NCBI GenBank assembly: GCA_029821755.1 | Contig: JALGSV010000029.1 | Coordinates: 1-43,154, forward strand | Direction of reading: 5' to 3' | Source: Candidatus Zipacnadum vermilionense | Lineage (GTDB): Bacteria; Armatimonadota; Zipacnadia; Zipacnadales; Zipacnadaceae | Length of the DNA: 43,154 nucleotides | Part shown: in pieces, positions 5,602-38,005 of the stretch | Numbering within the stretch: position 1 is the stretch's first letter | Layout of the letters: each line of letters begins with the position of its first letter | Position numbers and translations under genes: made by a program | Notes under the pieces: model-generated | The model's input: the letters and a program-made list of their open reading frames with translations, nothing else | Databases searched by the model: none | Told to the model about the DNA's origin: nothing

Positions 5602-6021
5602 CTATGCATCTGCAGGAGCGCCGGACGGTACCGAGCCCGTGGGCCCCGGAGCGTCGCCACCCATGCCGAACTGGGAGGGCACGTTAGCGCCGCCGATCTC
5701 CGCTAAGGTCCCTGCCCCTAGCGCCTCAACCACTTGGCGTACGGTGCCGCCCTGATGACCGTATGCCTTGATTCCGCCCGCCGCCAGTGTCTGGAAGGCG
5801 TTCGGCCCCACGTTTCCGGCAATGACCGCCTCCGCTCCGGCGTTGGCGATTAGTTGAACCGCGGCGATGCCCGCGCCGGAGCCTTGCAGCGCCGCCGTGT
5901 TCTCCATCGCCCTCGATTCCATCGTCTCGGTATCTACCAGCGCGAAATACGCACAGCGCCCGAACCGGGGTTCGCTCTGCGCTTCCAGATCCGTCCCGCT
6001 TGCGGCTACGGCTACTATCAT
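5602..6021 (-). CDS. NifX-like (COG1433) protein, tandem duplicate; ends at an in-frame TAG before a coiled coil
   Basis: A 139-residue protein. I chose the ATG at 6021, which matches the start of its duplicate at 5462; an earlier in-frame ATG at 6057 would add 12 residues. The first 110 or so residues differ from the downstream copy at only about four positions. It lacks the Met-Gly tract. Translation ends at TAG 5604-5602, directly where the sister reads QEL. The frame continues open after the TAG for about 26 codons (KLKAQTEALEAQLQALREQI...), a coiled coil, until TGA at 5523-5521. The tail is either lost through a nonsense change or reached by readthrough. Confidence 0.82.
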   Translation of the reverse strand: MIVAVAASGTDLEAQSEPRFGRCAYFALVDTETMESRAMENTAALQGSGAGIAAVQLIANAGAEAVIAGNVGPNAFQTLAAGGIKAYGHQGGTVRQVVEALGAGTLAEIGGANVPSQFGMGGDAPGPTGSVPSGAPADA

Positions 6022-6079
6022 GTACCTCGCTCCTTTGGGCAGGGTGTCCGGTACCAACAGGACGCCTTGCCGTGGCTGT

Positions 6080-6208
6080 TCACTGCTCGTCCAGGCCGGC
6101 GATCTGCTCCCGTAGGGCTTGCAGTTGCTGCTCCAGCAGGTTGGCCTGTGCTTGCAAGAAGGCTAGCTCCTGCTGGGACCCCGGCTCGCCCGTCGGGGCC
6201 GTCGGCAT
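6080..6208 (-). pseudogene. Coiled-coil tail after in-frame TAA (42-codon frame)
   Basis: This frame continues directly, in phase, from the small protein at 6212-6373 after its TAA and one glycine codon. It begins MPTAPTGEPGSQQEL and ends LQALREQIAGLDEQ, a Pro/Gly linker and a heptad-like coiled coil. An ATG is present at 6208, but I see no clear ribosome site, so re-initiation near the stop is possible but unproven. The simplest reading is a once-continuous gene split by a nonsense codon; independent translation or readthrough are alternatives. Confidence 0.55.
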
Positions 6209-6211
6209 GCC

Positions 6212-6373
6212 TTACCAGGCCGCAGCCATCGCCGGGTTGGACCACTGGCCTGTCATCAAGTACTCGGCACTCGGCCCTAGTCCACTGGGGCTGCGTCCCA
6301 CCCAGCCCGGGCTGTATCCAAACCGCATCCACCCCGGCAGACCGGTGGCGTAATACATGTTGCGTCGTCGCAT
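6212..6373 (-). CDS. Small Trp/Gly-rich protein of the NifX-like cluster
   Basis: A 53-residue protein with a very good ribosome site (AGGAGAGG about 6 bases before the ATG at 6373). The sequence (YYATGLPGWMRFGYSPGW..., RSPSGLGPSAEYLMTGQW) resembles small proteins I recall next to DUF5320 and COG1433 genes, which usually carry a coiled-coil C-terminus. Here a TAA at 6214-6212 ends translation before an in-phase coiled coil. Function is unknown. Aromatic and Gly/Pro content suggest a small structured interaction module. Confidence 0.7.
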   Translation of the reverse strand: MRRRNMYYATGLPGWMRFGYSPGWVGRSPSGLGPSAEYLMTGQWSNPAMAAAW

Positions 6374-6418
6374 TTTGTTCCTCTCCTTTCGCTTACGTCT
6401 TGTCGTTTTGTGGGACCC

Positions 6419-7288
6419 TCAAGGGCCCAAAATCTCGTGATTTGCATCTCCGTCGATACGAATCTGCATCCCTGTGCTTATGGGTATGACCTCACCAGGG
6501 AACCTCGCCTGCAACACCTTAGTAGCGCGCTCCCCCGTGCAGTGGCCCGGCATCAGCGTTCGCACTCCTCGCGCGTACACCTCGGCGGCCAGATTGGCGA
6601 CCTCCTCGTCGGGGGTGGCCAGCAGATGCAGGCCGCCGATGACGACTCGTGGCGGCCGCCCCGGGGCCACGGTCTCCGCCTGGCGCAGTATGTTCAGCAG
6701 CCCGGCATGGCCACACCCGGTGATCACCGCGCTGCAAGCTTGCAGGAGCGCCAGCAGAGAGAGGTCGTCTCGAAAGCTGTCAGGCAAGACACTGGTCGGC
6801 CCCCGGCGCAGCAACCTTGAGTCTGTCGGAGCCGCCGACGACTCCTGGGGTACCTCACCCGTGGTGACCAGGCCCTCCCCAATCTGGAGCGGCGACTCGG
6901 AAAGCTCGAAGCGCGCGCCCCGCGCCTCGTATTCGTCGCGGCTCAGCGGCAGGCCGATGTAGCGCATGCCTTCCCGACCGTTCTGCGCGTAGGTCTGGTC
7001 GAATACTCCGGGATGGGCAACCACGCGGGTGGGCCCTGCCTCCGCCAATACCGCCGGCAGACCCCCGGTATGGTCGTAGTGGCCGTGGCTGAGCACGATG
7101 GCGGCCAGAGAGCCGAGCGGCACCTCCAGCGCACGGGCATTGGCCACGACCGTGTCATCCGGCCCCGTGTCAAAGAGCACGCGCGTTTGCCCGTACGCCA
7201 CCAGCAAAGCCAGGCCGTGGCCCGCTTGTACCTGCGGTCGAGCCGCGGTGTTCTCTTTCAACACGACTATACGCAGCGCACACTCCAT
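6419..7288 (-). CDS. MBL-fold metallo-hydrolase (COG1237 type)
   Basis: A 289-residue metallo-beta-lactamase-fold protein. Metal ligands are visible in LSHGHYDHTGG (HxHxDH), and the later TGCGHAGLLN and IGGLHLL segments match the COG1237 subfamily, which includes dihydropterin-type phosphate synthases and related small-molecule hydrolases. I prefer the ATG at 7288, 7 bases after the stop of the NifX-like gene, with AGGAGG about 12 bases upstream; an in-frame start at 7330 would overlap that gene. There is no signal peptide, so it is cytoplasmic. COG1237 genes often accompany COG1433 and COG1149 genes. The substrate is unknown. Confidence 0.87.
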   Translation of the reverse strand: MECALRIVVLKENTAARPQVQAGHGLALLVAYGQTRVLFDTGPDDTVVANARALEVPLGSLAAIVLSHGHYDHTGGLPAVLAEAGPTRVVAHPGVFDQTYAQNGREGMRYIGLPLSRDEYEARGARFELSESPLQIGEGLVTTGEVPQESSAAPTDSRLLRRGPTSVLPDSFRDDLSLLALLQACSAVITGCGHAGLLNILRQAETVAPGRPPRVVIGGLHLLATPDEEVANLAAEVYARGVRTLMPGHCTGERATKVLQARFPGEVIPISTGMQIRIDGDANHEILGP

Positions 7289-7295
7289 GGTGATT

Positions 7296-7637
7296 TCAGG
7301 CCTCCTGGCCGTGCAAGCAGGAGCTGTCACCGGCTTCGAGCATGCCGCAAGCCAGGGCCTGCAGCGCTTCGAGGGCGTTGCCGGTCACGCCCGGGATGAA
7401 CTCGATCCCGGCGGCGGCGAATAGCCCCTGCGCCCGCGGTCCGGCGCCCCCAGCCACCACCAGCTCCACGCCCTTCTGCCGCATGAGTTCGGGAAGCACC
7501 CCTGGCTCATGTCCCGGACTCTCCAGCCATTCTACCAAGGTAATGTCCGGGCTCTTGAGGTCGGCGATGAGGTATCTCTGACACCGCCCGAAATGTGGCG
7601 AGAGTTGGGTTCCGTCACAGGCCACTGCGACTTTCAT
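7296..7637 (-). CDS. NifX-like (COG1433) metal-cluster protein
   Basis: A 113-residue single-domain protein of the dinitrogenase Fe-Mo cofactor family: MKVAVACDG at the N-terminus, SPHFGRCQRY at the cluster loop and VVAGGAGPRAQGLF in the second half. It is divergent from the two duplicated copies further down the operon. It has two extra cysteines near the C-terminus (ALACGMLEAGDSSC). A GGAGGG site lies about 12 bases before the ATG. A palindrome matching the padR operator lies 31 bases upstream of the start, so this is probably the first structural gene under PadR control. Confidence 0.88.
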   Translation of the reverse strand: MKVAVACDGTQLSPHFGRCQRYLIADLKSPDITLVEWLESPGHEPGVLPELMRQKGVELVVAGGAGPRAQGLFAAAGIEFIPGVTGNALEALQALACGMLEAGDSSCLHGQEA

Positions 7638-19310: not shown

Positions 19311-22300
19311 ATGAAAGAACGCGGCTCGGGCATAATTGGGCAGATAGTGACGGCGGTGGCGCTGATCGTCGTGACCTTTGTGGCCATCGGTATCTTCCTG
19401 CACGTATTCGCGCCCAAGCCCTATGAGTCAAAGGTGGCGCCCTTCAGCGGGTACGATCCCGCACCGATGCAGAGCGCGGTGGCACCGACAGCGGTGCGGG
19501 CGACCATGGATACCATCGTGGACTTCGGCTCACGCTTCATGGGGCAGCCGGGGTTCTACAAGACCGAGGAGTTCATTAAGGCCCAGTACGAGGCGGCGGG
19601 GCTGGAAGTCCTCGAGCAAGATATTGACACCCCCGCCCCACGCACGACGCTCGCCGAAGTCCTCTCCCCCACCGGGGAGCGGCTCCCCGCCAAGCTATAC
19701 CCCTTCATGCCCAACCAGATGCAGCCGATGGTGACGCCGGAGGAAGGCCTGACCGGCGAGCTGGTGCTGCTCAACGATGAGGTGCTGCGCACCCGGCCCA
19801 GCTTCCTGGGTGTCATCGGGCTGCTCAACAACGCGGACAAGGCGCCGGAGGGCTTCGGGTACGACTGGATCAAGTACGCACAACTGGGCATCTCGGCGCT
19901 GATCATCACCCATCCGGACGGGATGGACAAGATCGTCTGGTCCAGCACGGCCACGATGACCTCCACCAACCCCGTGAACTACGTGCGGTTGGTGGCGACG
20001 CCGGATATCTTGGGGTATGTGGGGCAGCAGATCACGCTGCGGGTCAAGACCGAGTACGCACGGGTGGCCAGCCGGACCATCGTGGCCCACCTGCCGGCGA
20101 AGCAGGAGGCCAAGGAAGTGGTGGTGGTCTGCTCCACTTACGATGCCGCTAGCCTGCTACCGGATAGCGCGCCGGGGTTCGCCAATGCGCTCTCGACGGC
20201 GACGACGCTGAACATGGCGAAGGCCTTCCGCGGCTACCAGTCCGCACTGCGGCGCGATGTGATCTTCGTCAACCTGGGGGCGGGGGTGGTAGCGCAGGAC
20301 GCGCTCAACGAGCTGCTGTGGGCAACCGGGACCGCGATCAACCCGGCCTCGCGGCGCCCGGAGATCGTGGTCCTACAGAAGGAAAACGAGACGCGACTCA
20401 AGCAGGTGCAGGAGGTGCAGGACTGCTTCAAGGACCCGGACTTTGCCTCCGATCCCAACGCGACGGCGCAGAAGAAGGCCGGGCTACCCCCGGCGACGCG
20501 AGCCTTCCTGGAAGAGCAGTCCAAGTACGTCCTCAACACGCTGGTCTTTGAGTTGTCGGAGGACCTGCTGCAGGCCAAGCTGGTCTTCGAGCGTGAGGGC
20601 GGCAAGGACCTGTCTCTCCCCTCCTATGCGGCGTACCAGGTCGTGAAGGAGAAGTACGACGCGGCCTTCTCGTCGGCGGGGTACAACTTGGGGAAACTGC
20701 TAGCCACCAAGGCCGACTTCGTGCGGGACTACCGGATACAAGACCTGCTGCAGGCGCGATTTGAAGAGCTGCTGGCCTTCCACCAGGCGCAGCAGAGACG
20801 GCTGGAGCAATCGCTGGCCCTGCACGATCTCTTCCGGCAGTATAGCGGGGTGCTGGTGATCTGCCCGCAACTAGTCACCTCCGGGGACCGGAAGCTGCCG
20901 GAGACGATCAGTTTCTCGATGGGCCAGGACACCAAGCACGGGGAGCAGGCGCAGGCCCTCAAGAACCTGCTGACCGACGCGGTGGCGCGACTGGGGGTGG
21001 CCCAGCAGATCACGCTGGATTTCGTGGGTAAGGACCAGGGCTCGAAGGTCAGTACGACTACCAGCCTGATCCCGCTGGCAGCGGCGTTGTGGTCGGCATA
21101 CTCCTACCCGGCCTATAGCGTGGTCAACGGCACGGGGCTGTACGCCGAGTGGGCCGACCCGGTGGAACACCCCACCTCACGGGACCTGGAGAGCATCCAC
21201 TACTCGCTGGCGGTGCTGGGGGAGGCGACGCTCTCGGCAGCGCTAGGCAACGGGCGCTTCACTAGCCTAACTACCTCGCGCTGGATCCAGGACTACTACG
21301 GCCGGGTGTACTGCTCCAACGTTGGGGAGTCGATCATCCCCAACTACCCGCTCAAGAACGCGCTGATAGCCACCAAGCAGTGGGGGGCGCCGCTGGGCTG
21401 GTACCCAGGCTGGTTCCCACAGCGGATCTTCCTGACCGACCCCTACGGGCGCTACGATCATCGTTCTTCCCCAGGAACGCTGCAGTCCAACCCCTGGCTG
21501 CTTTCCCCGGACTGCGCCGGCTATGGCCGGGACGGGGTCATCGCCTACATGAAGGACGAAGGGCTGTCGGCCCAGTCGATCTACAAGTCGATGGAGATTC
21601 CGGGCAATGCGCTGAACAGGCCGATAAACCTGGTGGCATACCGGGCCGCCCCGGTGTCGATCATGGATATGATCAACCCACAGACCTTCAAGCCCTTCAG
21701 CGCGGCGACGCTGATCAGCGAGAAGAGCCTGGCGGCCTTCCCCAGCACCAATCTGAACATGGACGACGGTATCTGCACGACCTTCGTCAAACCCGACGAG
21801 CGGTTTTACGTGACGCTGAAGGCGGGGTCGGTACAGAACGAGTTGGTGCAGGTGATCCGCTCGTTCATGCTGGGGACGGCCCTGGAGGATGCGCTGGCTC
21901 AGCAGCCGGTGGCGGGCTTGGGCAAGGAGATCCAGGGGGCGGGGTACCTACCGGCGGATACGCCGCGAGTGCTGGGCGTGCCGATGGAGATCGCCAAGTC
22001 GATGATCTTCGTCAACGGACGGCGGCTGGCGCTGGCGGACAACTACGGCATGGCGGACGAGCGGACCAAGCAGTTCCAGACCAAGTCGGTGGAGCTGGCC
22101 GAGGCGGCTGCCGATCCGAACGAGCCCGAGCACGCCGCGGTGTTACAGGCGCGCGACTCGGCCACCTATGCCACGCTCAACCACCCGGTGCTGCGTCAGA
22201 CCATCTCCGAGGCGGTCGTGGGCATCCTGTGGTACCTGGGACTGCTGGTGCCGTTTGTGTTCTTCTTCGAGAAGCTGGTCTTCGGCTTCAACGACATCCG

Positions 22301-24383
22301 CAAGCAACTGGGCGCCAACCTGATAATCTTCCTAGTGGTCTTCGGTCTGCTGCGCATGCTGCACCCGGCCTTCATGATGCTGCGGTCGCCCACGATGATC
22401 CTGCTGGGCTTCCTGATCTTCCTGTTCTCGACGGGGATCACGCTGCTGTTCTGGGGCAAGTTCCAGCAGAACCTGGAACAGGTCAAGCAGGCGCGGGGGC
22501 AGGTGACAGCGGCGGAGGTCAACCGCATGGGGGTGGTGGGCACCGCCTTCATGCTGGGTCTGAACAACATGCACCGGCGCAAGCTACGCACCGGCTTCAC
22601 CTGCGCCACGCTGATCCTGCTGACCTTCGTGATGATCTGCTTCACCTCGATCCGCAGCGATATTGTGGATCAGGCTACGGCGGTGGGCAAGGCACAGTAC
22701 ATCGGCTTCCTGGTGAAGAACGAAAAGTTCATCCCGCTGAGCGACGCCGAGCTGTTCGCCATGCAGACCAAGTACGGCGAGAAGTACGCGATAACGCAGC
22801 GGGTGATGTACGTGGGGACGGAGGAATGGCCCGCCAATGAGCGCAACAATCCCACGTTGGAGCTGATCTACGAGACGGGGCCGGACCAATCGCGCTCGGT
22901 GAACGGCGACAGCCTCCTGCTCTTCGGCGCCAAGGAGCCGCTGGTAAAGCACATGAAGTTCCTGACGCCGAACTGCTGGTTCACCGAGGCCCAGCAACAG
23001 GCCCAGACCGGGGATATCCCGGTGATCATCTCCGACGCCATGGCCGACAAGCTGGGGATTAACCCGCAAATGGTGGAGCAAGACGGGCTCACGGCCGCGC
23101 TCAACGGGCAGAAGTGCCTGATCCAGGGGATCTTTGATTCTGCGACGCTCAACGAGCTCACCGACCTGGACGGCAAGACGCTGCTGCCCTTCGACATCAC
23201 CGCCTTCGCCAACGTTAACAAGTCGGCTGATCCCAGCACCGGGGTGCTAACGGTAATCGCCGAGGACACCGACCCGCGGATCGACGCGGCTAAGATCATC
23301 CTGGCGCCAGCTCGGCCGATGGCGCTGACGGTGGATACGTCGTCCCGGATCATCAACTCCATCGCCGTGGTGCTGCGCGAGGGGACGCCGTACAAACAGG
23401 CCAAGTCGGTGATCGACTCGTACCTGGAGCAAAGCGGCAAGGCGACCTACTACGGGCTGGACAACTACGCCTTCCTGGGCAAGCGGACGCGGCAGTCCAC
23501 GCTGCTGGGCTCGATTGACATGCTGATCCCGCTGGTGATCGCGGCCCTGACCGTGCTCAACACCATGAAGGGCTCGGTCTATGAGCGGCGGGATGAGATC
23601 TTTGTGTACAACGCGGTGGGGATCGCGCCGCGGTACATCTTCTTCATGTTTTTCGCCGAGGCGTTCGTGTACGCGGTGGTGGGATCGGTGCTGGGGTACC
23701 TGCTCAGCCAGGGCACGGGCACGGTTCTGACCTTGACCGGATATACCGGCGGGCTGAATATGACCTTTACGTCGGCGACGACGATCTACGCGTCGCTGGC
23801 GATTGCGGCCTCGGTATTCGCCTCCACCTACTATCCGGCCAAGTCAGCAATGCAGATCGCGGCGCCGGCGGAAGACGCCGGGTGGCAGCTGCCCGAGCCG
23901 GAGGGCGACGTGGTGGGCTTCAACCTGCCCTTCACCTTCGATTACCGTGACCGCATCGCGGTTTTGTCCTTCTTCCACAAGTACCTGGTGGACCACGGCG
24001 AGGGCAGTTCCGGAGCCTTCTTCGCAGGGCCGCCGGTTCTTGGAATCTCAGACCGGACCGATCCGCTGGCCGATGACGGTTACATCCCGCAACTGGCAGT
24101 TACCATTTGGTTGAAGCCCTTTGATCTGGGGGTGTCGCAACACATCGTCATCAGCCTGCCCACGGACCCGGAAACCAAGGAACATGTCGCCAACGTGCAG
24201 ATGAATCGGCTATCGGGGTCGCTGGAGAACTGGAAGCGCACCAACCACGGCTTTGTAACGCTGGTGCGGCGGCACTTCCTGTACTGGCGGGCGGTGGGTC
24301 CGACGGAGCGGGCGGCAATGTTCGTAGAGGCCCGGGAACTGCTCCAGGCGGACCTCGGCGCAAAGGAGGGTGAGCATGGCTAA
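19311..24383 (+). CDS. Giant M28-peptidase-like ectodomain fused to FtsX-type ABC permease
   Basis: A 1690-residue membrane protein. There is a transmembrane anchor at 10-32, then about 930 extracytoplasmic residues. Part of this resembles an M28 aminopeptidase: a FGSRFMGQPGF-type propeptide-like start near 75, a PA-like insert (QLGISALIITHPDG), a core at 266-340, a helical insertion at 355-545 and an EHPTSRDLE motif near 625. The expected ligands are mostly absent: VVVCSTYD lacks the HYD histidine, APGFANALST lacks the Asp, and LGAGVVAQD lacks the Glu pair. Three membrane segments follow (965-1053), then a full FtsX module: one segment near 1098-1118, an ectodomain, three segments at about 1404-1510. 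It ends with a 175-residue cytoplasmic tail. It overlaps the next gene by 8 bases. Confidence 0.8.
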   Translation: MKERGSGIIGQIVTAVALIVVTFVAIGIFLHVFAPKPYESKVAPFSGYDPAPMQSAVAPTAVRATMDTIVDFGSRFMGQPGFYKTEEFIKAQYEAAGLEVLEQDIDTPAPRTTLAEVLSPTGERLPAKLYPFMPNQMQPMVTPEEGLTGELVLLNDEVLRTRPSFLGVIGLLNNADKAPEGFGYDWIKYAQLGISALIITHPDGMDKIVWSSTATMTSTNPVNYVRLVATPDILGYVGQQITLRVKTEYARVASRTIVAHLPAKQEAKEVVVVCSTYDAASLLPDSAPGFANALSTATTLNMAKAFRGYQSALRRDVIFVNLGAGVVAQDALNELLWATGTAINPASRRPEIVVLQKENETRLKQVQEVQDCFKDPDFASDPNATAQKKAGLPPATRAFLEEQSKYVLNTLVFELSEDLLQAKLVFEREGGKDLSLPSYAAYQVVKEKYDAAFSSAGYNLGKLLATKADFVRDYRIQDLLQARFEELLAFHQAQQRRLEQSLALHDLFRQYSGVLVICPQLVTSGDRKLPETISFSMGQDTKHGEQAQALKNLLTDAVARLGVAQQITLDFVGKDQGSKVSTTTSLIPLAAALWSAYSYPAYSVVNGTGLYAEWADPVEHPTSRDLESIHYSLAVLGEATLSAALGNGRFTSLTTSRWIQDYYGRVYCSNVGESIIPNYPLKNALIATKQWGAPLGWYPGWFPQRIFLTDPYGRYDHRSSPGTLQSNPWLLSPDCAGYGRDGVIAYMKDEGLSAQSIYKSMEIPGNALNRPINLVAYRAAPVSIMDMINPQTFKPFSAATLISEKSLAAFPSTNLNMDDGICTTFVKPDERFYVTLKAGSVQNELVQVIRSFMLGTALEDALAQQPVAGLGKEIQGAGYLPADTPRVLGVPMEIAKSMIFVNGRRLALADNYGMADERTKQFQTKSVELAEAAADPNEPEHAAVLQARDSATYATLNHPVLRQTISEAVVGILWYLGLLVPFVFFFEKLVFGFNDIRKQLGANLIIFLVVFGLLRMLHPAFMMLRSPTMILLGFLIFLFSTGITLLFWGKFQQNLEQVKQARGQVTAAEVNRMGVVGTAFMLGLNNMHRRKLRTGFTCATLILLTFVMICFTSIRSDIVDQATAVGKAQYIGFLVKNEKFIPLSDAELFAMQTKYGEKYAITQRVMYVGTEEWPANERNNPTLELIYETGPDQSRSVNGDSLLLFGAKEPLVKHMKFLTPNCWFTEAQQQAQTGDIPVIISDAMADKLGINPQMVEQDGLTAALNGQKCLIQGIFDSATLNELTDLDGKTLLPFDITAFANVNKSADPSTGVLTVIAEDTDPRIDAAKIILAPARPMALTVDTSSRIINSIAVVLREGTPYKQAKSVIDSYLEQSGKATYYGLDNYAFLGKRTRQSTLLGSIDMLIPLVIAALTVLNTMKGSVYERRDEIFVYNAVGIAPRYIFFMFFAEAFVYAVVGSVLGYLLSQGTGTVLTLTGYTGGLNMTFTSATTIYASLAIAASVFASTYYPAKSAMQIAAPAEDAGWQLPEPEGDVVGFNLPFTFDYRDRIAVLSFFHKYLVDHGEGSSGAFFAGPPVLGISDRTDPLADDGYIPQLAVTIWLKPFDLGVSQHIVISLPTDPETKEHVANVQMNRLSGSLENWKRTNHGFVTLVRRHFLYWRAVGPTERAAMFVEARELLQADLGAKEGEHG

Positions 24384-27582: not shown

Positions 27583-27672
27583 GGGAAGCTCGTTGCTGCG
27601 GGGATAGGAGTCGTGGCGGGGGGAGAGGGCAAGCTGGAAGGCCGCTCGACGCGGAGACGGATTGAGGCGAAC

Positions 27673-28449
27673 ATGGCTGTAGATGCCGAGAAACTGGAAG
27701 CGCTGTTCGAGGCGCCGGAAGAAACTCACGCTACCTGCATCATCCGCGCGGTAGAGGTGCAGAAGATCTACCACACCGGGACGCAAGAGGTGAAGGCGCT
27801 CCAAGGCGCCTCGGTCGACATCTACAAGGGTGAGTACCTATCCATTATGGGCCCCTCGGGGTCGGGGAAGACGACCCTGTTCAACATGATCGGCGGATTG
27901 GGCAAGCCGACCTCGGGCAAGGTCTACATCGACCAGGTAGACATCGCGCAACTGGACTACAACGAGCTGGCCTGGCTGCGCTGCCGCAAAGTGGGGTACA
28001 TCTTCCAGAGCTACCACCTGATCCAGGTGATGACCTGCCTGGAGAATGTGACGCTGCCCATGAGCTTCGCCGGGCTGGATGCCGAGGAGGCGCGGGACAA
28101 GGGCATTGCTCTGCTGGAGCTGGTGGGCCTGGGAGAGCGGGTGCTGCACAAGCCGGGGGAGCTGTCCGGTGGGCAGCAGCAGCGCTGCGCTATCGCCCGA
28201 GCCCTGGCGAACAGCCCGGAGATCATCCTGGCCGACGAGCCGACGGCCAACCTGGACTCGCACACAGGCCAGGAGATCATCGACCTGCTGGCCCAGCTGA
28301 AGAGCGAGCTGAACGTCACCATCGTGTCCGCCACGCACGACCTGAAGATGCTCCGGAAGTCCGACCGCATCCTGTGGATCGAGGACGGGCGGATTGTGAA
28401 GATGGCCCATCCCAGCGAGATTGACTTCTCGCTCGGGGACTTTGACTAG
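27673..28449 (+). CDS. ABC transporter ATPase (LolD/MacB type) 1
   Basis: A 258-residue nucleotide-binding subunit. Walker A GPSGSGKTT is at residues 60-68, the Q-loop is in GYIFQSYHL, the signature LSGGQQQRCAIARAL is present, Walker B is IILADEP and the switch His is in SATHD. I chose the ATG at 27673 (GAGG 7 bases upstream) over a GTG at 27613 that would add 20 basic residues. An N-terminal extension of about 20 residues precedes the first strand. The MSxxxxxN-type helical region (VTLPMSFAG) is typical of LolD/MacB ATPases, which pair with FtsX-type permeases like the two encoded upstream. Confidence 0.92.
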   Translation: MAVDAEKLEALFEAPEETHATCIIRAVEVQKIYHTGTQEVKALQGASVDIYKGEYLSIMGPSGSGKTTLFNMIGGLGKPTSGKVYIDQVDIAQLDYNELAWLRCRKVGYIFQSYHLIQVMTCLENVTLPMSFAGLDAEEARDKGIALLELVGLGERVLHKPGELSGGQQQRCAIARALANSPEIILADEPTANLDSHTGQEIIDLLAQLKSELNVTIVSATHDLKMLRKSDRILWIEDGRIVKMAHPSEIDFSLGDFD

Positions 28450-28625: not shown

Positions 28626-29333
28626 ATGTCCGCAAACAACGACATTATAATCCGGTCGGAGGGTGTCAGCAAGCGGTACGTCATAGGCGGCGAGGAAGTT
28701 TGGGCGCTGTGGGAAGTCACTCTGGACATCTACCGCAGCGAGTTTCTCTCCATCATGGGTCCCTCGGGGTCGGGCAAGTCCACCTTCTTCAACCAGGTGG
28801 GGGCACTGGACAAGCCAACCCGCGGAAAAGTCTTCTTCGAGGGGCAGTCGATCTTTGACCTGTCGGAGAGCAAGCAGGCGTGGTTCCGCTGCAATAAGAT
28901 TGGCTACATTTTCCAAACCTTCAACCTCATCAGCGTGATGAGCGCTCTGCAGAACGTGACGCTGCCGATGGTCTTCCAGGGGGCGAGCAAGCGGGAGGCG
29001 GAGCAGCGCGGGATCGACATCCTGGAGCGGGTCGGTCTGGGGCACCGCCTGCACCACAAGCCTTTCGAGCTGTCCGGCGGCCAGCAGCAGCGGGTAGCGG
29101 TCGCCCGGGCCCTGGCCAACACCCCCACCGTTATCCTTGCGGATGAGCCGACCGGCAACCTCGACACTAAGACCGGGCGCGAAATTATCGAACTGCTCCG
29201 CGAGCTGCAGCAGCGTGAGGGCGTGACCGTCATCACGGCCACGCACGACCGCCGGATGATTACCTCCTCCGACCGGGTGGTGTGGATACAAGACGGGAAG
29301 GTGGAGAGGGTCCAGGAGCAGGGACAAGAGTAG
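28626..29333 (+). CDS. ABC transporter ATPase (LolD/MacB type) 2
   Basis: A 235-residue ATPase with Walker A GPSGSGKST at residues 45-53, the Q-loop in GYIFQTFNLI, signature LSGGQQQRVAVARAL, Walker B VILADEP and switch His in TATHD. It is clearly a paralogue of the preceding ATPase but not a recent copy. All catalytic residues are intact in both, so either two homodimers serve two permeases or a heterodimer serves the giant/small permease pair. It is 176 bases downstream of the first ATPase, a gap that contains a degraded palindrome (around 28531-28551). Confidence 0.92.
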   Translation: MSANNDIIIRSEGVSKRYVIGGEEVWALWEVTLDIYRSEFLSIMGPSGSGKSTFFNQVGALDKPTRGKVFFEGQSIFDLSESKQAWFRCNKIGYIFQTFNLISVMSALQNVTLPMVFQGASKREAEQRGIDILERVGLGHRLHHKPFELSGGQQQRVAVARALANTPTVILADEPTGNLDTKTGREIIELLRELQQREGVTVITATHDRRMITSSDRVVWIQDGKVERVQEQGQE

Positions 29334-29469: not shown

Positions 29470-31710
29470 ATGTCTACCCCTTCCCCTCTCCCCCATGTCA
29501 CCGTCGGTACGCGCCAGGGCCGGCCCGTGTTGCTGTGGGACGGTGATCCTTACTTCTATACCTCTTACTTCATCAGGCACGTTACCGACCGCGTCGAGGG
29601 GCGCGGGCCGACTAAGGTCGAGGACCGGGAGGACTATGTGCGGCGACTGGCGGAACTGTGCCGGCCCTTCGCGCAGCGGGGCATCCACGGCTATGAGGTG
29701 TCGATGGACGCGGGGTGGCAGGGGCCGGGCGAGTGGGACCCAACCCGCGCCCTCTGGAGCGAGCCGGCGCACGACCAGTTCCGCGCGGTGCTCCAGGGCG
29801 ACCCTGAGGCACGGATCATGGTCAACTTCCTCATCCACGCGCCCAAGCCGTGGCTGGAGGCCTTTCCCGAGGAGCGCGAGTGGGACGACCAGGGCGCCAT
29901 GCACGAGGTCTCCATCGGGTCGGACCGCTACTTGGAAGAACTGATCGGGCACATCCAGTCCTTCGTGCGCTACGTAGAGGAGAAGTCGGAGTGGGCAGCG
30001 CACGTGCTGACCTACTTCTTCTCCTACGGGCACGAGGGCTTCACCTGGGCCAGCATGTCCAACGCGCTGGGCGACTTCTCCCCCACCATGCACCGCTGCT
30101 TGCGAGCGTGGCTGCGGGAAAAATACCACGACGACGTGGCCGCGCTGCGCGAGGCTTGGCAGGACCCGGAGGTAAGCTTTGAAACGGCGGCGGTTCCGTC
30201 GCGCGAGCAGCAACTGCATGCCGACTTGGGCTGGTTCCGTGATCCCACCGGTTCGCGGCAGGTGCAGGATTACATGGAGTGTCGCGTGGACCGCTTCGTG
30301 GAAATTCACTACCGGATCGCAGCGGCGATAAAGGAGGCCTGCAGCCGGCGGGTGCCCGTGTACTGCTTCGGGGGGTACTTGCAGGTGACCGGCTGGCCGG
30401 GGTCGTACTGGGATGACAAGAGGGGGTTGGACTCGATAGAGTTCAGCCCGCATGCGCTGAGCGTGCAAACCGGTTGGCGACAGATTATCGAGTGCCCGGA
30501 TATTGACGGCTGGGAATCGCCCTACGACTACTACTACCGGCAGATGGGCGGGGTGTGCCTGAACCAGTCGCTCGAGCAGTCGATGCTGCTGCGCGGCAAG
30601 CTGTTCCAGGTCAATGAGGACACGCGAACGTTCCTGGCGGCGGAAGCGGGGGACGTGTACGGCACTGTGGAGACGCGGGAAGAGACGACGGCGGTCTACC
30701 GGCGCAACTTCGGGGCCATCGCCTCGCACTGGAGCGGCTGTAACTGGATGGAGCAGATCAATAACTGGCTCCAGGACGACGAGATCCTGGACACGCTGGG
30801 GGGCTTCCACCGGTTGCTGCAAAAGTCGCTGGACTGGCCGGAGACGGCGGTGGAGCCCATCGGCGTGTTCCTGGATGAGGCCTCCATCCGCTACGAGAAG
30901 CCGCTGATCGACCTGGACTGGGACCTGGTCTACAAGCAGCGCATCTTCGGGCTGTCGCACTGCGGCGTGCCCTTCCGCTTCCACCTGGTGGACGACCTGC
31001 TACTGGACAACATGCCGGAGTACAACCTGTACATGTTCCTGAACCTGTTCTACGTGGACGAGGAGCGGGAGCGGCTGATCCGGGAGAAGGTGCAGCGAGC
31101 GGGGAAGACGGCGCTGTGGATGATCGCGCCGGGGTTCTGCCACGCCACGGAGGGGCTGTCGCTGGAGTCGATGCGCCGGCTGACGGGGATGGGATTCGGT
31201 AAGTTCGACATGAACTTTGAGCAGTGGGTGACGATCAGCGACTACACACACCCCATCACCGCGGGGCTGCCGCATGACCTGGTCTACGGCAGTGATGCGC
31301 GCGTGGGGCCGGTGTTCTACGTGGACGACCCGGAAGCGACGGTGCTGGGGCGGCGGTTGCTCTTCCAGGGGCGACATGAGCCGGCGCTGGCGCTCAAGGA
31401 GTTCCCGGAGCACCGGGCGCTATATTCTGGCGCGCCGCTGCTGCCCTCAGGACTGCTGCGAGGCATCGCGCGATATGCGGGCTGCCACGTCTACACGGAG
31501 GACAACGACGTGGTTATGGCGGGGCGTGGGCTGGTCACCTACCACACGGTAGCGCCGGGGCCGCGCACATTGAAGCTGCCGGAGAAGGCGACGGTGTGGG
31601 ACCTGTTCAGCAGGGAATGCCTGGGGGAGAGCGTGGAGGAGGTCAAGCTGCATTTCGAGCAGCCCGGGACGAGGGTACTGACGACCCTGGAGCCAGGGCT
31701 CTGGCAGTAG
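29470..31710 (+). CDS. Large glycoside-hydrolase-like protein (GH42/beta-galactosidase-like)
   Basis: A 746-residue cytoplasmic protein with no signal peptide. The ATG has GGAGGT 7 bases upstream. The first 420 residues look like a TIM barrel of the GH42/beta-galactosidase type: an HGYEVSMDAGW loop, LTYFFSYGHEGF at the end of a strand, and WESPYDYYYRQMGG. Residues about 470-650 resemble a GATase-like trimerisation domain (EPIGVFLDEAS, YNLYMFLNLFYVD), followed by a small beta domain. I cannot assign the catalytic pair with confidence. It follows the transporter genes by 136 bases and may process an imported or cell-wall oligosaccharide; this link is inference. Confidence 0.7.
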   Translation: MSTPSPLPHVTVGTRQGRPVLLWDGDPYFYTSYFIRHVTDRVEGRGPTKVEDREDYVRRLAELCRPFAQRGIHGYEVSMDAGWQGPGEWDPTRALWSEPAHDQFRAVLQGDPEARIMVNFLIHAPKPWLEAFPEEREWDDQGAMHEVSIGSDRYLEELIGHIQSFVRYVEEKSEWAAHVLTYFFSYGHEGFTWASMSNALGDFSPTMHRCLRAWLREKYHDDVAALREAWQDPEVSFETAAVPSREQQLHADLGWFRDPTGSRQVQDYMECRVDRFVEIHYRIAAAIKEACSRRVPVYCFGGYLQVTGWPGSYWDDKRGLDSIEFSPHALSVQTGWRQIIECPDIDGWESPYDYYYRQMGGVCLNQSLEQSMLLRGKLFQVNEDTRTFLAAEAGDVYGTVETREETTAVYRRNFGAIASHWSGCNWMEQINNWLQDDEILDTLGGFHRLLQKSLDWPETAVEPIGVFLDEASIRYEKPLIDLDWDLVYKQRIFGLSHCGVPFRFHLVDDLLLDNMPEYNLYMFLNLFYVDEERERLIREKVQRAGKTALWMIAPGFCHATEGLSLESMRRLTGMGFGKFDMNFEQWVTISDYTHPITAGLPHDLVYGSDARVGPVFYVDDPEATVLGRRLLFQGRHEPALALKEFPEHRALYSGAPLLPSGLLRGIARYAGCHVYTEDNDVVMAGRGLVTYHTVAPGPRTLKLPEKATVWDLFSRECLGESVEEVKLHFEQPGTRVLTTLEPGLWQ

Positions 31711-31868: not shown

Positions 31869-32963
31869 TTACTTTCTCGCCATGCTTAGCAGCCCCTCGG
31901 CGATTCTCTCGGCGGCGTGGGGAAAGGACCAGCGGCGGGCCAGGCGGGACATCTCGTCGCAGTGAGTGGTGTTCTGGACGCAGCCGCCGATCAGCGCCCC
32001 CAGCGCCTGGGGAGTGCATTCGTCGTTGGGCAGCACTATCGCCCCGCCAGCGGCCTCCAGGGCATGCGCGTTGGACATCTGGTGCCCACCGGCGCCGGGG
32101 TAGGGGATGAGAATCTGCGCACAGCCGCGGACGGAGGCCTCGGCGAGGCTGCTGGAGCCCGCCCGGCCTACCACCAGGTCAGCGGCGGCCAGCAAGGGGC
32201 CCATCTCGTCGACGAAGGCCAGAGGGTAGTAGTGGCCGGTGAGCTCCGCGACCGGGGCAGCCTGGGCGACCGTGGCCTCGTACTCGCGGGAGCCGGTGAG
32301 GTGGACGATCTGCAAGGGGAGCCGGAGCAGCTCAGGCAGGGCGCCGACCAGTGCCTGATTGATGGTCCGGGCCCCCTGGCTGCCGCCCATGACCAACACC
32401 GTCAGCCGCTGCGGGTCCAGGCCCAGCCTCTGCCGGCCCTGCTGGCGGGAGGCTTCCATGATGGCACCGCGCACGGGGCAGCCGGTGACCTCGGTGAGGG
32501 CGCTAGGAAAACGGTCGGCAGCCTCGCGGAAGGCTAGGGTGATCCAGCGCGCCCAGCGGGAGACGAAGAGGTTGGCGCGGTCGGGCTGGGCGTCCAGGAC
32601 GTGCAGGGCCACGGGGATGCGCAACAGCCGCGCGGCGACGACCACCGGGACGGACACGAAGCCGCCGATGCCCAGGACGGCCTCAGGTCTGAGGCGGCGT
32701 AGCAGGCCACAGGCGCGGACGAAGGCCCCGCTCAGGCGCACCGCGGCAACGAGAGCCTGGGGGCTAAGACCGTAGGGGAAGGGGACGGTGGGCAGGCGAT
32801 GGAAGGTCAGGCCGGCTTCCCCCAGCATGTGCGCGTCAAGCTCGCGGGTGCTGCAGATGAAATGCAGTTCAGCCGCGGGGTCCTGCTGGACGAGGCGCTC
32901 GGCCACGGCGATCCCGGGGGACAGATGCCCCGCGGTGCCTCCGCCGGCGAGGACCAGGCGCAA
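31869..32963 (-). CDS. murG: MurG, undecaprenyl-PP-MurNAc-pentapeptide GlcNAc transferase
   Basis: A 364-residue GT28 glycosyltransferase that adds GlcNAc to lipid I to make lipid II on the inner face of the membrane. It has the GGGTAGHLSPGIA loop at the N-terminus, GIGGFVSVP, GGSQGARTIN in the C-terminal domain and GRAGSSSLAEA for UDP-GlcNAc binding. Translation starts with TTG at 32963, 4 bases after the ftsW stop, preceded by GGGGAAGG. It is the last gene of the cluster before the intrinsic terminator; murC and ftsQAZ do not follow as in many bacteria. Confidence 0.95.
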   Translation of the reverse strand: MRLVLAGGGTAGHLSPGIAVAERLVQQDPAAELHFICSTRELDAHMLGEAGLTFHRLPTVPFPYGLSPQALVAAVRLSGAFVRACGLLRRLRPEAVLGIGGFVSVPVVVAARLLRIPVALHVLDAQPDRANLFVSRWARWITLAFREAADRFPSALTEVTGCPVRGAIMEASRQQGRQRLGLDPQRLTVLVMGGSQGARTINQALVGALPELLRLPLQIVHLTGSREYEATVAQAAPVAELTGHYYPLAFVDEMGPLLAAADLVVGRAGSSSLAEASVRGCAQILIPYPGAGGHQMSNAHALEAAGGAIVLPNDECTPQALGALIGGCVQNTTHCDEMSRLARRWSFPHAAERIAEGLLSMARK

Positions 32964-32967
32964 GGCG

Positions 32968-34161
32968 CTAGCCTTCCCCTCGCACGCGTTCTTCCGCGGC
33001 TACAGACAGGATGAGGCCGGTGCCGATCAGACAAGAGAGAATGCTACTGCCGCCGTAAGAGATGAAAGGAAGGGTCAAGCCGGTGGGCGGAAGGCTGGCG
33101 GTGGCCACGCCGATGTTGACCAGCCCCTGCAGTGCAAAGGACAAGCCGATCCCGGAGGCGAGGAAGAAGCCTAGCCGGTGGGGGCAGCGGCGGGCGATGA
33201 GGAAGGCCCACCCCCCCAGCAGGACGGTGAGCGCGATGACTCCGATACCGCCCCATAGGCCCAGTTCCCCACCGATGACGCAGAAGATGGAATCGGTGAA
33301 GCGCTCCGACAGGTTGCTCCACTTCTCCTGGCTCACCCCCAGGCCTTGTCCGGCCGCGCCGCCGTGAGCCAGGGCGATCAGCATGTTGTAGACGTGCAAG
33401 CCGCCGCCCTGGAGGTACTGCTCGGGATGCAGCCACACCAGGATGCGCTGCCAGGCGTGGGGAATCATGCGGGCCAGCAACAACCCGAGGCCGCCGGTGG
33501 CAAGGGTGAGGGGGATCCAGCCGCGCAGCGACATGCCACCGATCAGGGCCATGCCCAGCGTCACCGCCATGACTACCAACGCCATCCCCAAGTCCTTCTG
33601 CCCGACCAGCAGCAGAGCGGTAAACAGGGCGGCGCCGACGATGGGAATCCAGACGCGGCCGCTCTGCTCACGCGGCAGAGGCCCCCGGGCCAGGCAGGAG
33701 GCAACGTAGACGATGAAGGCGATCTTAGCGAACTCGGAGGGCTGCCAGCGGATAGGCCAGGGCAGCCAGCAGTAGGCGCCGTTGAGTTCATGGCCGAGAA
33801 ACTTGCCCCAGATGATGGCGAGGAACATCAGGACCCAACCGGTGCTTAGCGCCGCCAGAGGCAGCCAGCGCCGACAGACTAACCAGCGCACCGGGATCTT
33901 GGCCAGCATCAGCATCGCGACCAGGCCGACCAGCGCGAAGCTCAGTTGCGCCCGGAAGTAGTGGTGGGGGTCGTTACCGTAGGCGGTGGGGCGACCGGCG
34001 AAAGGGTAGCTGGAGGAGAAGACGAAGACGAGCCCCAACACCACCAGACTGTAGACGAGCAGGAAGTAGCGCCGGCCGGCCGCGGTTAGCCAGGTGCGGC
34101 GGCCACCCCCTATGGTCGCCTCTCGTCCCCGCGCCGGCATTTCCCGCGCTCTAGCCAGCAT
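32968..34161 (-). CDS. ftsW: FtsW, SEDS-family peptidoglycan polymerase
   Basis: A 397-residue protein with about ten membrane segments after a basic N-terminus. The SEDS hallmark region is recognisable: WQRILVWLHPEQYLQGGGLH, then HGGAAGQGLGVSQEKW and TDSIFCVIGGELGLWGG. The usual YQ-S stretch is replaced by VYNMLIALAHGG. FtsW polymerises lipid II at the division site together with FtsI, encoded upstream in this cluster. The ATG at 34161 overlaps the murD stop by 11 bases, with GGAGGG further upstream; ATG 34140 is the alternative. Confidence 0.92.
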   Translation of the reverse strand: MLARAREMPARGREATIGGGRRTWLTAAGRRYFLLVYSLVVLGLVFVFSSSYPFAGRPTAYGNDPHHYFRAQLSFALVGLVAMLMLAKIPVRWLVCRRWLPLAALSTGWVLMFLAIIWGKFLGHELNGAYCWLPWPIRWQPSEFAKIAFIVYVASCLARGPLPREQSGRVWIPIVGAALFTALLLVGQKDLGMALVVMAVTLGMALIGGMSLRGWIPLTLATGGLGLLLARMIPHAWQRILVWLHPEQYLQGGGLHVYNMLIALAHGGAAGQGLGVSQEKWSNLSERFTDSIFCVIGGELGLWGGIGVIALTVLLGGWAFLIARRCPHRLGFFLASGIGLSFALQGLVNIGVATASLPPTGLTLPFISYGGSSILSCLIGTGLILSVAAEERVRGEG

Positions 34162-35581
34162 CGCCGGCGCTTCCCTCCTCCGGCACGGCGTAGCGGTAGC
34201 TTAGCTCCCGTACGCAACGGGTGAAGACCTGGCCGCGATCAGCCTGATCGCGGAACATATCGAAGCTGGCGCAGCCGGGCAGGAGCGCGACGGTCGTGCC
34301 CTCCTCCGCCAGGCTGAAGGCCGTCGCCACGGCCTGCTCCATGTCCGCGCACTTGACCACGCGGCCCCAGTTGCCGACGGCCTCGGCCAGGACGTCGCTG
34401 CTCTCACCGAGGAGGCAAACCGCGACGCATTCCCGGCGCAGGCGCTCGCCGAATTCGCTGAAGTCCACGTTCTTGCTGACCCCGCCGACGATGGGAATGA
34501 GCGGCCGGCCCAGGCAGTCCAGATCGGCCAAGGCCGCAGCGACGTTCGTGGCTTTGGAGTCATCCACGAAGCGTACGCCCCGGACAGTGCCGACCGTCTG
34601 CAGCAGGTGATCGGCAGGGCGGAAGGCGGCCAAGCCGGCGGCAATGGCGGCGGGCTCCGCCCCGGCCAGGCGGGCGACCAGGGCGGCGGCCAGGGCGTTG
34701 CGCAGGAAGTGGTTGCCGTACACCGGCAGGTCCTCCACCGCGCACACCACCTCGGGGGCGCCCGGCTCGATCTCGACCACCAAGAGATCATCCTCGACCC
34801 GCGCATTCACCTTGGGTTGGTGGAGACCGAAGGTGAGCAACTGGGCGGTCAGGTCACCGATGAGGGGCTGTAGACTGGGATCGTCGAGCGAGATGATGGC
34901 GAAATCGGTGGGGCGCTGGTTGCTGAACATGCGGTACTTGGCCCGCAGGTAGGTGCGGAAGTCGGGGTGGCGGTCCAAGTGGTCCGGGGAGATGTTGAGG
35001 AGTGCCGCCACATACGGACGGAACCTGTCGATGGATTCCATCTGGAAGCTGCTGACCTCCAGCACCACGAACTCCACTTCCTCGGTACGGTCCATCTGGC
35101 TGATCAGGGGCAGGCCAATGTTGCCGGCGACCAGGTGGTCAATGCCGGCGGCCTGGAGGATGTCACCGATCATGACACAGGTGCTGCCCTTGCCGTTGGT
35201 GCCGGTCACGGCCAGAATGGGGGCCGCGCAGAAGCGATAGGCCAACTCCAGCTCGCCGATGATGGGAATCCCCTCCGCGCGCAAGGCCTGGAGGGCGGCG
35301 TGATTCTCGGGCACGCCGGGGCTGACGACCACCAGGTCGACGGCACCCAACTGCTCGCACGCGGCGAAGTGCTCGACGAACTCCCCGCCCAGCTCTAGGA
35401 GTTGATGGCGCTCATCGGCCAACTCCTCCCCGGTCTTGGCGTCGGCACCGACTACGGCAGCCCCCCGCCCCAGCAAGAACCGGGCGGAGGCCATGCCGCT
35501 GCGAGCGAGGCCAATGACGGCCACGCGCTTGCCGGCAAGGTTGAGAGGTTCGGTAGAGATTGGATTGTCAGTAGCGGTCAT
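34151..35581 (-). CDS. murD: MurD, UDP-MurNAc-L-alanine:D-glutamate ligase
   Basis: A 476-residue Mur ligase. The ATP-binding TGTNGKGST replaces the usual TGTNGKST/TT with one extra glycine. VLEVSSFQME and ISPDHLDRH are typical MurD motifs, and DDSKATN and LLPGCASFDMF mark the C-terminal domain. It adds D-glutamate to UDP-MurNAc-L-Ala in the cytoplasm. The ATG shares one base with the mraY stop (TAATG), so I prefer 35581 over an upstream ATG inside mraY. An N-terminal GLARSGMASARFLLGRGA forms the first nucleotide fold. Confidence 0.95.
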   Translation of the reverse strand: MTATDNPISTEPLNLAGKRVAVIGLARSGMASARFLLGRGAAVVGADAKTGEELADERHQLLELGGEFVEHFAACEQLGAVDLVVVSPGVPENHAALQALRAEGIPIIGELELAYRFCAAPILAVTGTNGKGSTCVMIGDILQAAGIDHLVAGNIGLPLISQMDRTEEVEFVVLEVSSFQMESIDRFRPYVAALLNISPDHLDRHPDFRTYLRAKYRMFSNQRPTDFAIISLDDPSLQPLIGDLTAQLLTFGLHQPKVNARVEDDLLVVEIEPGAPEVVCAVEDLPVYGNHFLRNALAAALVARLAGAEPAAIAAGLAAFRPADHLLQTVGTVRGVRFVDDSKATNVAAALADLDCLGRPLIPIVGGVSKNVDFSEFGERLRRECVAVCLLGESSDVLAEAVGNWGRVVKCADMEQAVATAFSLAEEGTTVALLPGCASFDMFRDQADRGQVFTRCVRELSYRYAVPEEGSAGDAG

Positions 35582-36564
35582 TAGTACCTCCCTAGGAACG
35601 CCCCTAGGGCCAGGCCGCCCGCGACCAGGCCGACTAGGGCGAAGCGGGCAACGACTTGCGGCTCCTTCCACCCCCGCAGCTCAAAGGCGTGGTGGATAGG
35701 CGTCATGCGGAATAGGCGCTTGCCGCCGGTGCTGCGAAAGTAGAGCACCTGCAGGATCACGCTGACGACCTCGGTCACAAAAACCACGGCGGCCAGGGCG
35801 AAGAACAGCTCCAGCCCGGCGGCCACGGCTATCCCGCCCATAAGCGCCCCCATGCCGAGGCTGCCGACGTCGCCCATGAAGATCTTCGCCGGGTTGCTGT
35901 TGAACCACAGGAATCCGGCGGCGGCCCCGGCGAGGGCCACGGCGGGCCAAACCAGGCTGGGCGCCGCTACCGCGCAGGCGACGGCCATTACCGCCGCACA
36001 GATGGCGGTCAAGGTCGCAGCCAGGCCGTCCACGCCGTCGGCGAAGTTGCAGGCGTTGGCGGCGCCGACGATGGTGAAGACCCCCAGGGCGCCCCACAGC
36101 AGACCATACGGTCCGACCGAACCCCAGCCCGAAAAGCCCCACATCGGACGCGCCGTGAGCTGTGGGCCGATCAGCCAGACGAACCCGGCCGCGAAGAGTA
36201 TCTCCAGCACGATCCGGTAGCGGGCGGGGAGGCCGCGGGAGCTACCGCCTCGCATCTTAACGACATCATCAGCCAGGCCGACAAGGGCATAGAGCAGCGC
36301 TAGGCCCAGCGGATAGGCAACCTGGGCCCCCCAGCCGCCGCAAGCCAGGGCCGCGATGACCGTCGCCCCCAGAATCGCCGCTCCGCCCAGCGAGGGAGTG
36401 CCTTGCTTGGCCTTATGGCTCGCGGGACCGTCCTCGCGGACTTGCTGGCCGAGTTGCCACTTCCGGACAAACCCCAGCACTAAGCGGGTGAGCAGTACGC
36501 TCACCACCAGTGCGATGAGCGCGGCGGTGAGGGCGTGGGCTGCTTGGCTAGTCGTCGTCGGCAT
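35581..36564 (-). CDS. mraY: MraY, phospho-MurNAc-pentapeptide translocase
   Basis: A 327-residue membrane enzyme that makes lipid I from UDP-MurNAc-pentapeptide and undecaprenyl phosphate. Motifs: GLADDVVKM (Asp pair), NFADGVDGLA, FMGDVGSLGMG with the catalytic Asp, and TPIHHAFELRGW as the His loop (the usual third His is Ala here). About ten membrane segments are visible. GGAGG lies 9 bases before the ATG, which overlaps murF by 17 bases. Confidence 0.94.
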   Translation of the reverse strand: MPTTTSQAAHALTAALIALVVSVLLTRLVLGFVRKWQLGQQVREDGPASHKAKQGTPSLGGAAILGATVIAALACGGWGAQVAYPLGLALLYALVGLADDVVKMRGGSSRGLPARYRIVLEILFAAGFVWLIGPQLTARPMWGFSGWGSVGPYGLLWGALGVFTIVGAANACNFADGVDGLAATLTAICAAVMAVACAVAAPSLVWPAVALAGAAAGFLWFNSNPAKIFMGDVGSLGMGALMGGIAVAAGLELFFALAAVVFVTEVVSVILQVLYFRSTGGKRLFRMTPIHHAFELRGWKEPQVVARFALVGLVAGGLALGAFLGRY

Positions 36565-37921
36565 GACGCAAGCCCTCCACTATCTCCTCCAGGTGCATGC
36601 TGCGGGAGGCCTTGACCAGCACGGTGTCGCCGGGGCGCAGGAGGGTGCGCAGCGCCGCCAGAGCCCCGGCGGGGGTGTTTACCGCTAGCGCCGGCAGACC
36701 GGTCTCGCGGGCGGTCTCCGCGGCGCCCGCAGCCCCGGGGCCGACGGTGACCATCCCCTCGATCCCGGCGCGGGCCACCTGCCGTCCCACTTTGCGGTGC
36801 TCCGCCTCGGCGAACTGCCCCAACTCCAACATGTCCCCCAGCACCAAAATACGGCGGCCGGACAGCGAGGCGAGCAGCTCCACCGCGGCGGCCACCGAAC
36901 TAGGACTGGCGTTGTAGGCGTCGTTGATCACGGTGACCGGGCCGGGGAGGGTTACCACCTCACAGCGCATGGATTCGCCTTGTGCGCCTACCAGACCTTC
37001 CCGGAGGTCCCCCGGCGAGACCCCGACGGCCCAGGCGGCAGCAGCGGCGGCGAGTGCGTTGAGGACCTGATGGCGGCCGGGCAGGCTCAGCGACACCGGC
37101 AGACGCTCCCCGGCCACGCACAGCGTGAAGTCGCTGCCTTCCAGACCGCGCAGGGCGATCTCCTCCGCTCGCACCTCGGCGTCGGGACCCAGACCAAAGG
37201 AGACCACCGGGCAGGGGGCCATCTCGCGCAGGAGGCCGAAGAAGAAATCGTCGGCGTTCAGCACCGCCCGCCCCTCCGGGGGCAGGGCCACGAGCAGCTC
37301 CGCCTTGGCCTGGGCGACGGCCTCCCGCCCGCCCAAGCGGCCCAGGTGCGAGGTACCGATGTTGGTGATGACACCAATCTCGGGGTGGCTGACCTCGACC
37401 AGGTAGCGAATTTCTCCCGGCCCACGCATGCCGAATTCCAGGACGCAGAAGCGGTGTTCGGGCGCGAGCTGCAGCAGCGTCCGAGGGACGCCGACCTCGT
37501 TGTTCTCGTTTCCGGCCGCGGCGAGGGTGGGGCCAAGGCGCGAGAGGATACCGTCGAGGAAGGCCTTGGTGCTGGTCTTGCCCGTGCTGCCGGTGACGGC
37601 CAGGACGCGCGCCGGGCACTGCTCCCGCCACCAGCGCGCGATTTGCCCGTAGGCGTACAGCGTGTCAGGCACGGTAATCAGGGCGGTGTCGAGGGACAGA
37701 TCGGCCGGGCGTCGGGCGACCAGAGCGGCAACCGCGCCGGCCGCCAGCGCGGCGGTAACGTGGTCATGCCCATCATGCGTTTCCCCCCGCAAGGCGACGA
37801 AAAGCTCGCCGGGCTGCACCCGGCGTGAGTCGGTCGTCACCCCTGTCGCGGTCAGGCTGCGGTCAGGGCTGGTGAACTCCGCGTCAAGCAAGGCAGTAAG
37901 GTCGGCTAGTCTGAGAAGCAT
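36548..37921 (-). CDS. murF: MurF, UDP-MurNAc-tripeptide:D-Ala-D-Ala ligase
   Basis: A 457-residue Mur ligase that completes the pentapeptide. VTGSTGKTSTKAFLDG is the ATP loop, ENNEVGVPRTLL is the MurF-type motif, and VINDAYNASPSSVAAA marks the C-terminal domain. The ATG at 37921 begins right at the family N-terminus, but I see no Shine-Dalgarno sequence in front of it; the preceding 84 bases hold a 17-bp hairpin. Translation may depend on coupling or on a leaderless or internal entry. Confidence 0.94.
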   Translation of the reverse strand: MLLRLADLTALLDAEFTSPDRSLTATGVTTDSRRVQPGELFVALRGETHDGHDHVTAALAAGAVAALVARRPADLSLDTALITVPDTLYAYGQIARWWREQCPARVLAVTGSTGKTSTKAFLDGILSRLGPTLAAAGNENNEVGVPRTLLQLAPEHRFCVLEFGMRGPGEIRYLVEVSHPEIGVITNIGTSHLGRLGGREAVAQAKAELLVALPPEGRAVLNADDFFFGLLREMAPCPVVSFGLGPDAEVRAEEIALRGLEGSDFTLCVAGERLPVSLSLPGRHQVLNALAAAAAAWAVGVSPGDLREGLVGAQGESMRCEVVTLPGPVTVINDAYNASPSSVAAAVELLASLSGRRILVLGDMLELGQFAEAEHRKVGRQVARAGIEGMVTVGPGAAGAAETARETGLPALAVNTPAGALAALRTLLRPGDTVLVKASRSMHLEEIVEGLRHADDD

Positions 37922-38000: not shown

Positions 38001-38005
38001 AATCC

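Follow-up and report, generated by a model that had tools for sequence, protein, structure and literature searches.

What kind of machine is formed by a single chain of 1,690 residues that joins a peptidase-like ectodomain to an ABC permease, and with which partners would it work? The gene concerned, here called gene B, lies in a 43,154-nucleotide stretch of DNA from Candidatus Zipacnadum vermilionense (Armatimonadota), which as a whole is referred to below as the window (Table 1). As the preliminary description had stated, its frame is uninterrupted by any internal stop codon. Codon composition is of the coding type, with a strong third-position GC bias (GC3, 0.87; GC2, 0.42), and the opposite strand carries many stops throughout the stretch. 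Hydropathy and Pfam analyses bore out the layout claimed earlier, namely, an N-terminal anchor, an ectodomain of ~930 residues (no transmembrane [TM] segment was predicted between residues 31 and 967), three extra membrane segments (at about residues 968 to 986, 996 to 1023, and 1021 to 1050), an FtsX module, and a cytoplasmic tail. The extra segments and the tail had been placed outside the usual permease plan, a view that is supported here, and both are conserved family-wide; motifs PF..F.E.L and HPAF in the extra segments were invariant in the family comparison. The 350 to 650 residues given earlier as the usual permease size agree with the lengths of the profiles for MacB (648), LolCE (411), FtsX (292), and ADOP (803).

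Table 1. Features of gene B and of the surrounding gene cassette (window coordinates unless a locus is named)
Feature	Coordinates	Strand	Basis
Gene A, DUF6785/DUF6784 membrane protein, likely 855 aa	16653..19220	+	PF20581, E = 1.7e-69
Gene B, giant FtsX-type permease, 1690 aa	19311..24383	+	ORF, Pfam, phylum-wide relatives
N-terminal membrane anchor, residues 12-30	19344..19400	+	Hydropathy
PA-like region and first half of M28-like domain, residues ~60-345	19488..20345	+	Pfam, PDB profile
Helical insertion and probable second M28-like half, residues ~395-660	20493..21290	+	Family alignment, weak YwaD second segment
Conserved ectodomain region of no known family, residues 655-945	21273..22145	+	Family conservation, searches
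Three extra membrane segments, residues ~968-1050, motifs PFxFFxE(K/R)L and HPAF	22212..22460	+	Hydropathy, family conservation
FtsX/MacB module (TM, extracytoplasmic domain, three TMs), residues 1096-1516	22596..23858	+	PF02687, MacB_PCD, PDB profiles
Conserved cytoplasmic tail, residues 1517-1690 (~174 aa)	23859..24380	+	C-terminal alignment
Gene C, polytopic OPT-related protein, ~699 aa	24376..26475	+	Distant OPT membership, gene order
Gene D, small FtsX-type permease, 346 aa	26542..27582	+	PF02687, E = 6.7e-14
Gene E, LolD/MacB-type ATPase	27613..28449	+	PF00005, E = 1.6e-33; TIGR02211, E = 4e-69
Gene F, second LolD/MacB-type ATPase	28626..29333	+	PF00005, E = 1.8e-30; TIGR02211, E = 7e-69
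PqqD-like/~325-aa side loci in relatives	L048:4010-4546, L051:14063-14551, L055:13927-14343, L049, L047; weakly L035:11740-12168		

The FtsX module consists of a TM segment (residues 1096 to 1114), an extracytoplasmic domain of ~280 aa, and three further TM segments (residues 1398 to 1416, 1443 to 1461, and ~1490 to 1515), the last of which was placed by alignment with relatives, its hydropathy peak in the window protein being below the threshold. This MacB-type plan, with TM1 followed by a large extracytoplasmic domain and TM2 to TM4, is present in the window protein and its relatives according to hydropathy. PF02687 was matched at residues 1406 to 1516 (E = 9.8e-14) and in all 22 family members searched, MacB_PCD was matched in 14 of the 22, and the PDB profile matches of the module were to the structures of YtrF, MacB, LolF, and LolC. 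Two cognate ATPases of the LolD/MacB type are encoded in the same operon. The assignment of gene B to the type VII (MacB/FtsX/LolC) ABC permeases is well supported. The protein missed the NCBIfam equivalog cutoffs for MacB (39 bits against 966), FtsX_Gneg (32 against 255), and lolCE (12 against 362).

Gene B belongs to a plus-strand cassette with the order A-B-C-D-E-F, and the same order from A to F was found in loci L035 and L036. The listed ORF of gene A begins at position 15222, and a start at 16653 is likely; its relatives have 835 aa. The ATG of gene C lies within the end of gene B, with AAAGGAGG (Shine-Dalgarno) upstream, and gene E has an alternative ATG start at 27673. For both E and F, TIGR02211 was the best NCBIfam match, yet the scores were under the equivalog cutoff. 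Among the 19 main-family loci examined, gene C adjoins gene B in 14 and a DUF6785 gene does so in 2 more, while 3 (L050, L052, and L054) have neither C nor A adjacent; a small FtsX gene is found near gene B in 11 of the 19, usually together with an ATPase gene. Several gene C relatives reach the Pfam cutoff for the OPT oligopeptide transporters (PF03169), including those beside gene B in G008 (37.9 bits) and G209 (30.4 bits), which were matched to B by coordinates and whose OPT match spans much of the model, whereas the window gene C and most C members score under the cutoff. The sequence thus suggests that gene C is a distant relative within the OPT transporter family, from which it differs in recurrently neighboring an ABC permease. 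The structure model of gene C had a pLDDT of 31.5, too low for the model to be of use. Homology between genes C and A was not supported.

In some relatives, the interval separating the OPT-like gene from the small FtsX gene contains two further genes, one for a PqqD-like (RiPP recognition-type) protein and one for an ~325-aa protein without a known family; no PqqD was recognizable in the window operon. Pseudopilin-like genes neighbor the cassette in relatives and may be of the kind found in Armatimonadota. The DUF6785 proteins are expanded in the 4.4-Mb genome from which the window comes (about eleven genes at 11 loci), and no DUF6785 gene was found in 14 control genomes.

On the basis of the FtsX core, the small permease D and ATPases E and F in the operon, and the recurrent OPT/DUF6785 partner, we think it probable, although by no means secure, that the product of gene B is the larger of two different permeases in a type VII ABC complex that works by mechanotransmission, with an ATP-moved pseudo-M28 ectodomain and an OPT-like partner. 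The gene order suggests that A/C and F are members of one complex with B; complex membership, direction, and substrate are points that we infer. A substrate-translocating or MacB-like efflux transporter, in which the big ectodomain replaces a separate adaptor, would be in keeping with the resemblance of the ATPases and the FtsX core to MacB and LolD, and the search of the neighbors turned up no adaptor of the HlyD/MacA type. We nevertheless regard efflux as rather unlikely, because the cassette showed no gene for an outer-membrane exit duct and the recurrent partner is of the OPT/DUF6785 type, which is absent from MacAB.

The N-terminal half of gene B also has, by hydropathy, the same topology as MacB (TM1-ectodomain-TM2-TM3-TM4, with the two termini on the inside), and the superfamily includes fused permeases (PMC5985334). 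The anchor, the 930-aa ectodomain, and the three membrane segments could in principle be a diverged FtsX unit that arose by internal duplication, making gene B a fused pseudo-dimer, as in ADOP or YbbP. This origin appears quite improbable: it is without sequence support, since the two halves showed no similarity in profile-profile comparison (hhalign probability, 0.1 to 2%), and the operon encodes a separate small FtsX permease, D.

The ectodomain had been described as M28-like, and with respect to the fold this held. Searched alone, gene B matched Pfam M28 at residues 257 to 323 with E = 0.029 (14.5 bits versus a cutoff of 21.3); within the family, however, PF04389 (M28) was matched by 21 of 22 members (best E, 1.1e-13) and the PA domain by 5 of 22. 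The family profile matched the aminopeptidase structures 2ek8 (E = 1.4e-23) and YwaD (6hc6; E = 6.1e-20), as well as the transferrin receptor, nicalin, and nicastrin (E = 1e-10 to 3e-4). The extent given earlier was correct for residues ~60 to 660, a stretch that also takes in a PA-like region ahead of the domain and an insertion, but not for residues 655 to 945, which form a separate conserved region. The significant M28 match is limited to the first half; the second half rests on the family alignment, the match to the second segment of YwaD being weak and nonsignificant. The second half searched alone gave just SnoaL-like matches at chance level (E of at least 0.19). In L048 and L056, one or two extra membrane segments were seen at residues ~390 to 438, within the insertion that splits the M28 domain.

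What did not stand is the peptidase. In the main family, the first His ligand is replaced by Tyr or Phe in 32 of 32 scored sequences, the catalytic Glu is replaced by His in 33 of 33 scorable members, and the Glu that follows the catalytic position is retained in none of the 33 (Phe in 30); the bridging-Asp region reads PGAE in 31 and PGAD in 2. According to the alignment, an Asp is kept in the motif LDLSS further along the domain, and the His of the aminopeptidase yHTP motif aligns with the Asp of the VDTP motif of the relatives (ADP in the window copy). The window subtype has diverged beyond this pattern, with T276, D278, A291, G325, and V326 at the pocket positions and nearly all ligands lost, and L035 and L036 keep H276, D278, and one Glu, the remaining ligands being lost. 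Judged by these residues, the ectodomain is well supported as M28-like in fold and a pseudo-peptidase. An active M28 peptidase would fit the fold, and a type VII ABC transporter that forms a complex with a hydrolase is already on record (PMC12646458), but we hold it to be very unlikely and, in view of the replaced ligands in the main family and the window copy alike, have set it aside. The uniform, conserved replacement of the pocket argues for a new, nonpeptidase role and against decay.

In the heteromeric type VII complex that we favor, B and D would pair in the membrane, and the binding of ATP by E and F would move their extracytoplasmic domains, a movement that may in turn drive the PA/pseudo-M28 ectodomain of B. 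The latter would act not as a peptidase but in binding or as a scaffold, as in the transferrin receptor, nicastrin, and nicalin, and could capture or release an envelope substrate or hand it over to or from the OPT-like partner, while the tail is probably a docking site for a ligand or regulator in the cytoplasm. A bolder version, which we would not expect to prove right, is that the M28 pocket has been rebuilt as a conserved nonpeptidase ligand site or alternative metal site, through which mechanotransmission powered by ATP gates a secondary transporter of the OPT-like type or supplies it with substrate. Candidate residues of such a site in the main family are D278, E291, H325, and the aspartates of LDLSS and VDTP. 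If true, an ABC machine would operate a partner transporter through a pseudo-peptidase receptor, and two classes of transporter would be coupled in a way not described before. Whether an ABC machine is coupled to a second transporter is a testable question posed by the linked OPT-like partner, and the ligand of such a domain could be tested directly through the invariant replaced pocket residues.

With the type VII permeases (MacB, LolC/LolE, FtsX, YtrF, and BceB/YbbP), gene B shares the FtsX C-terminal domain, the TM-ectodomain-3TM core, and, in many members of its family, a MacB-like periplasmic core, and its system shares the LolD/MacB-type ATPases; heteromeric permeases, as proposed for B and D, are found in LolCDE. 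Compared with these, gene B has about 1,100 additional N-terminal residues, four additional TM segments, the pseudo-M28 ectodomain, and the conserved tail, and its system adds the OPT/DUF6785 partner. BceB also has extra TM segments, 10 in all (PMC5985334), but lacks the ectodomain that gene B has N-terminal to them. The PA and M28 regions are common to gene B and the PA-domain M28 aminopeptidases (2ek8 and YwaD 6hc6), whereas in gene B the ligands and the catalytic Glu are replaced, a helical insertion splits the domain, and an ABC permease is fused to it. Like gene B, the transferrin receptor, nicastrin, and nicalin are membrane anchored and M28-like and lack a peptidase site; unlike it, they are eukaryotic and stand outside the ABC transporters, so the likeness is one of fold and working principle and not of membership. 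YbbAP-TesA is a type VII ABC transporter with a hydrolase-type extracytoplasmic partner (PMC12646458); that hydrolase is separate and active, whereas the domain of gene B is fused and has no active site. The presence of an M28 pseudo-peptidase in a bacterial ABC machine is of interest, as such domains are known mainly as eukaryotic receptors.

The architecture was as claimed but is far from unique: it typifies the phylum and lies within a conserved gene cassette. In a genome-wide search across 291 members of the phylum, 281 had a gene B match, many of these matches covering just the common FtsX part, and ~193 had a strong match (E of 1e-28 or below; table rows counted by hand), the weak or absent ones being concentrated in a few families. 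The best matches listed mostly cover residues ~650 to 1680 at 27 to 35% identity, and the relatives are single frames of about 1,500 to 2,000 aa, a few of which end at a contig edge. That gene B is an assembly or gene-calling fusion of two adjacent genes, a possibility raised in the preliminary description, has practically no chance of being correct, as no evidence for a fusion was found and the many intact relatives with the same single-frame architecture in independent assemblies, one-contig genomes included, rule it out. A second copy is present in the same genome (contig C71), a metagenome-assembled genome (MAG) of the same genus has a relative with 71% identity that is truncated by the contig end, and two MAGs labeled Spartobacteria in the submitters' record titles have relatives with 40 to 42% identity. 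Among the matches listed for the 291 genomes, the window subtype was seen only in the window genome and its congener, and in the tree of the FtsX part, whose rooting is unsafe owing to long branches, a long, fully supported branch divides it from the other family members. No relatives were found in the plasmid and viral collections searched.

A literature search of open-license PMC papers found no published description of the architecture, and the system, though of a known ABC class, is apparently undescribed, despite being conserved in roughly two-thirds of the genomes sampled from the phylum. Its largest subunit, gene B, bears two conserved regions of no known family. The first, residues ~655 to 945, had no Pfam family or PDB sequence match; Cry3A matches there were noise (E of at least 0.65). 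The second, the tail, had no significant Pfam or PDB sequence match and has 21 invariant columns in a C-terminal alignment of 23 sequences, among which the WLxPxDLGVS and W-R motifs stand out for their conservation. In a low-confidence structure model of residues 640 to 1690 (pLDDT, 37.4), the tail was the best part, with blocks of pLDDT 60 to 74, and its top Foldseek matches were nearly all to helix-grip (Bet v1/PYL/START-like) folds, the best at E = 0.008 and none below 0.001. We treat this possible helix-grip (Bet v1/START) resemblance as a weak lead only.

Downstream of the ATPases in the window, a 746-aa protein (29470 to 31710, plus strand) looks by eye like a glycoside hydrolase; it had no Pfam or NCBIfam match, is absent from the cassettes examined in relatives, and was not counted as part of the cassette. 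A convergent cluster on the minus strand (31869 to 41443) resembles, by eye, a dcw cell wall/division cluster from murG to ftsI, and relatives showed no such cluster next to their cassettes. At 1448 to 7637 on the minus strand, several small proteins, some of them partly repeated, look by eye like nitrogenase-cofactor/Mrp-type accessory proteins, with P-loop ATPases.
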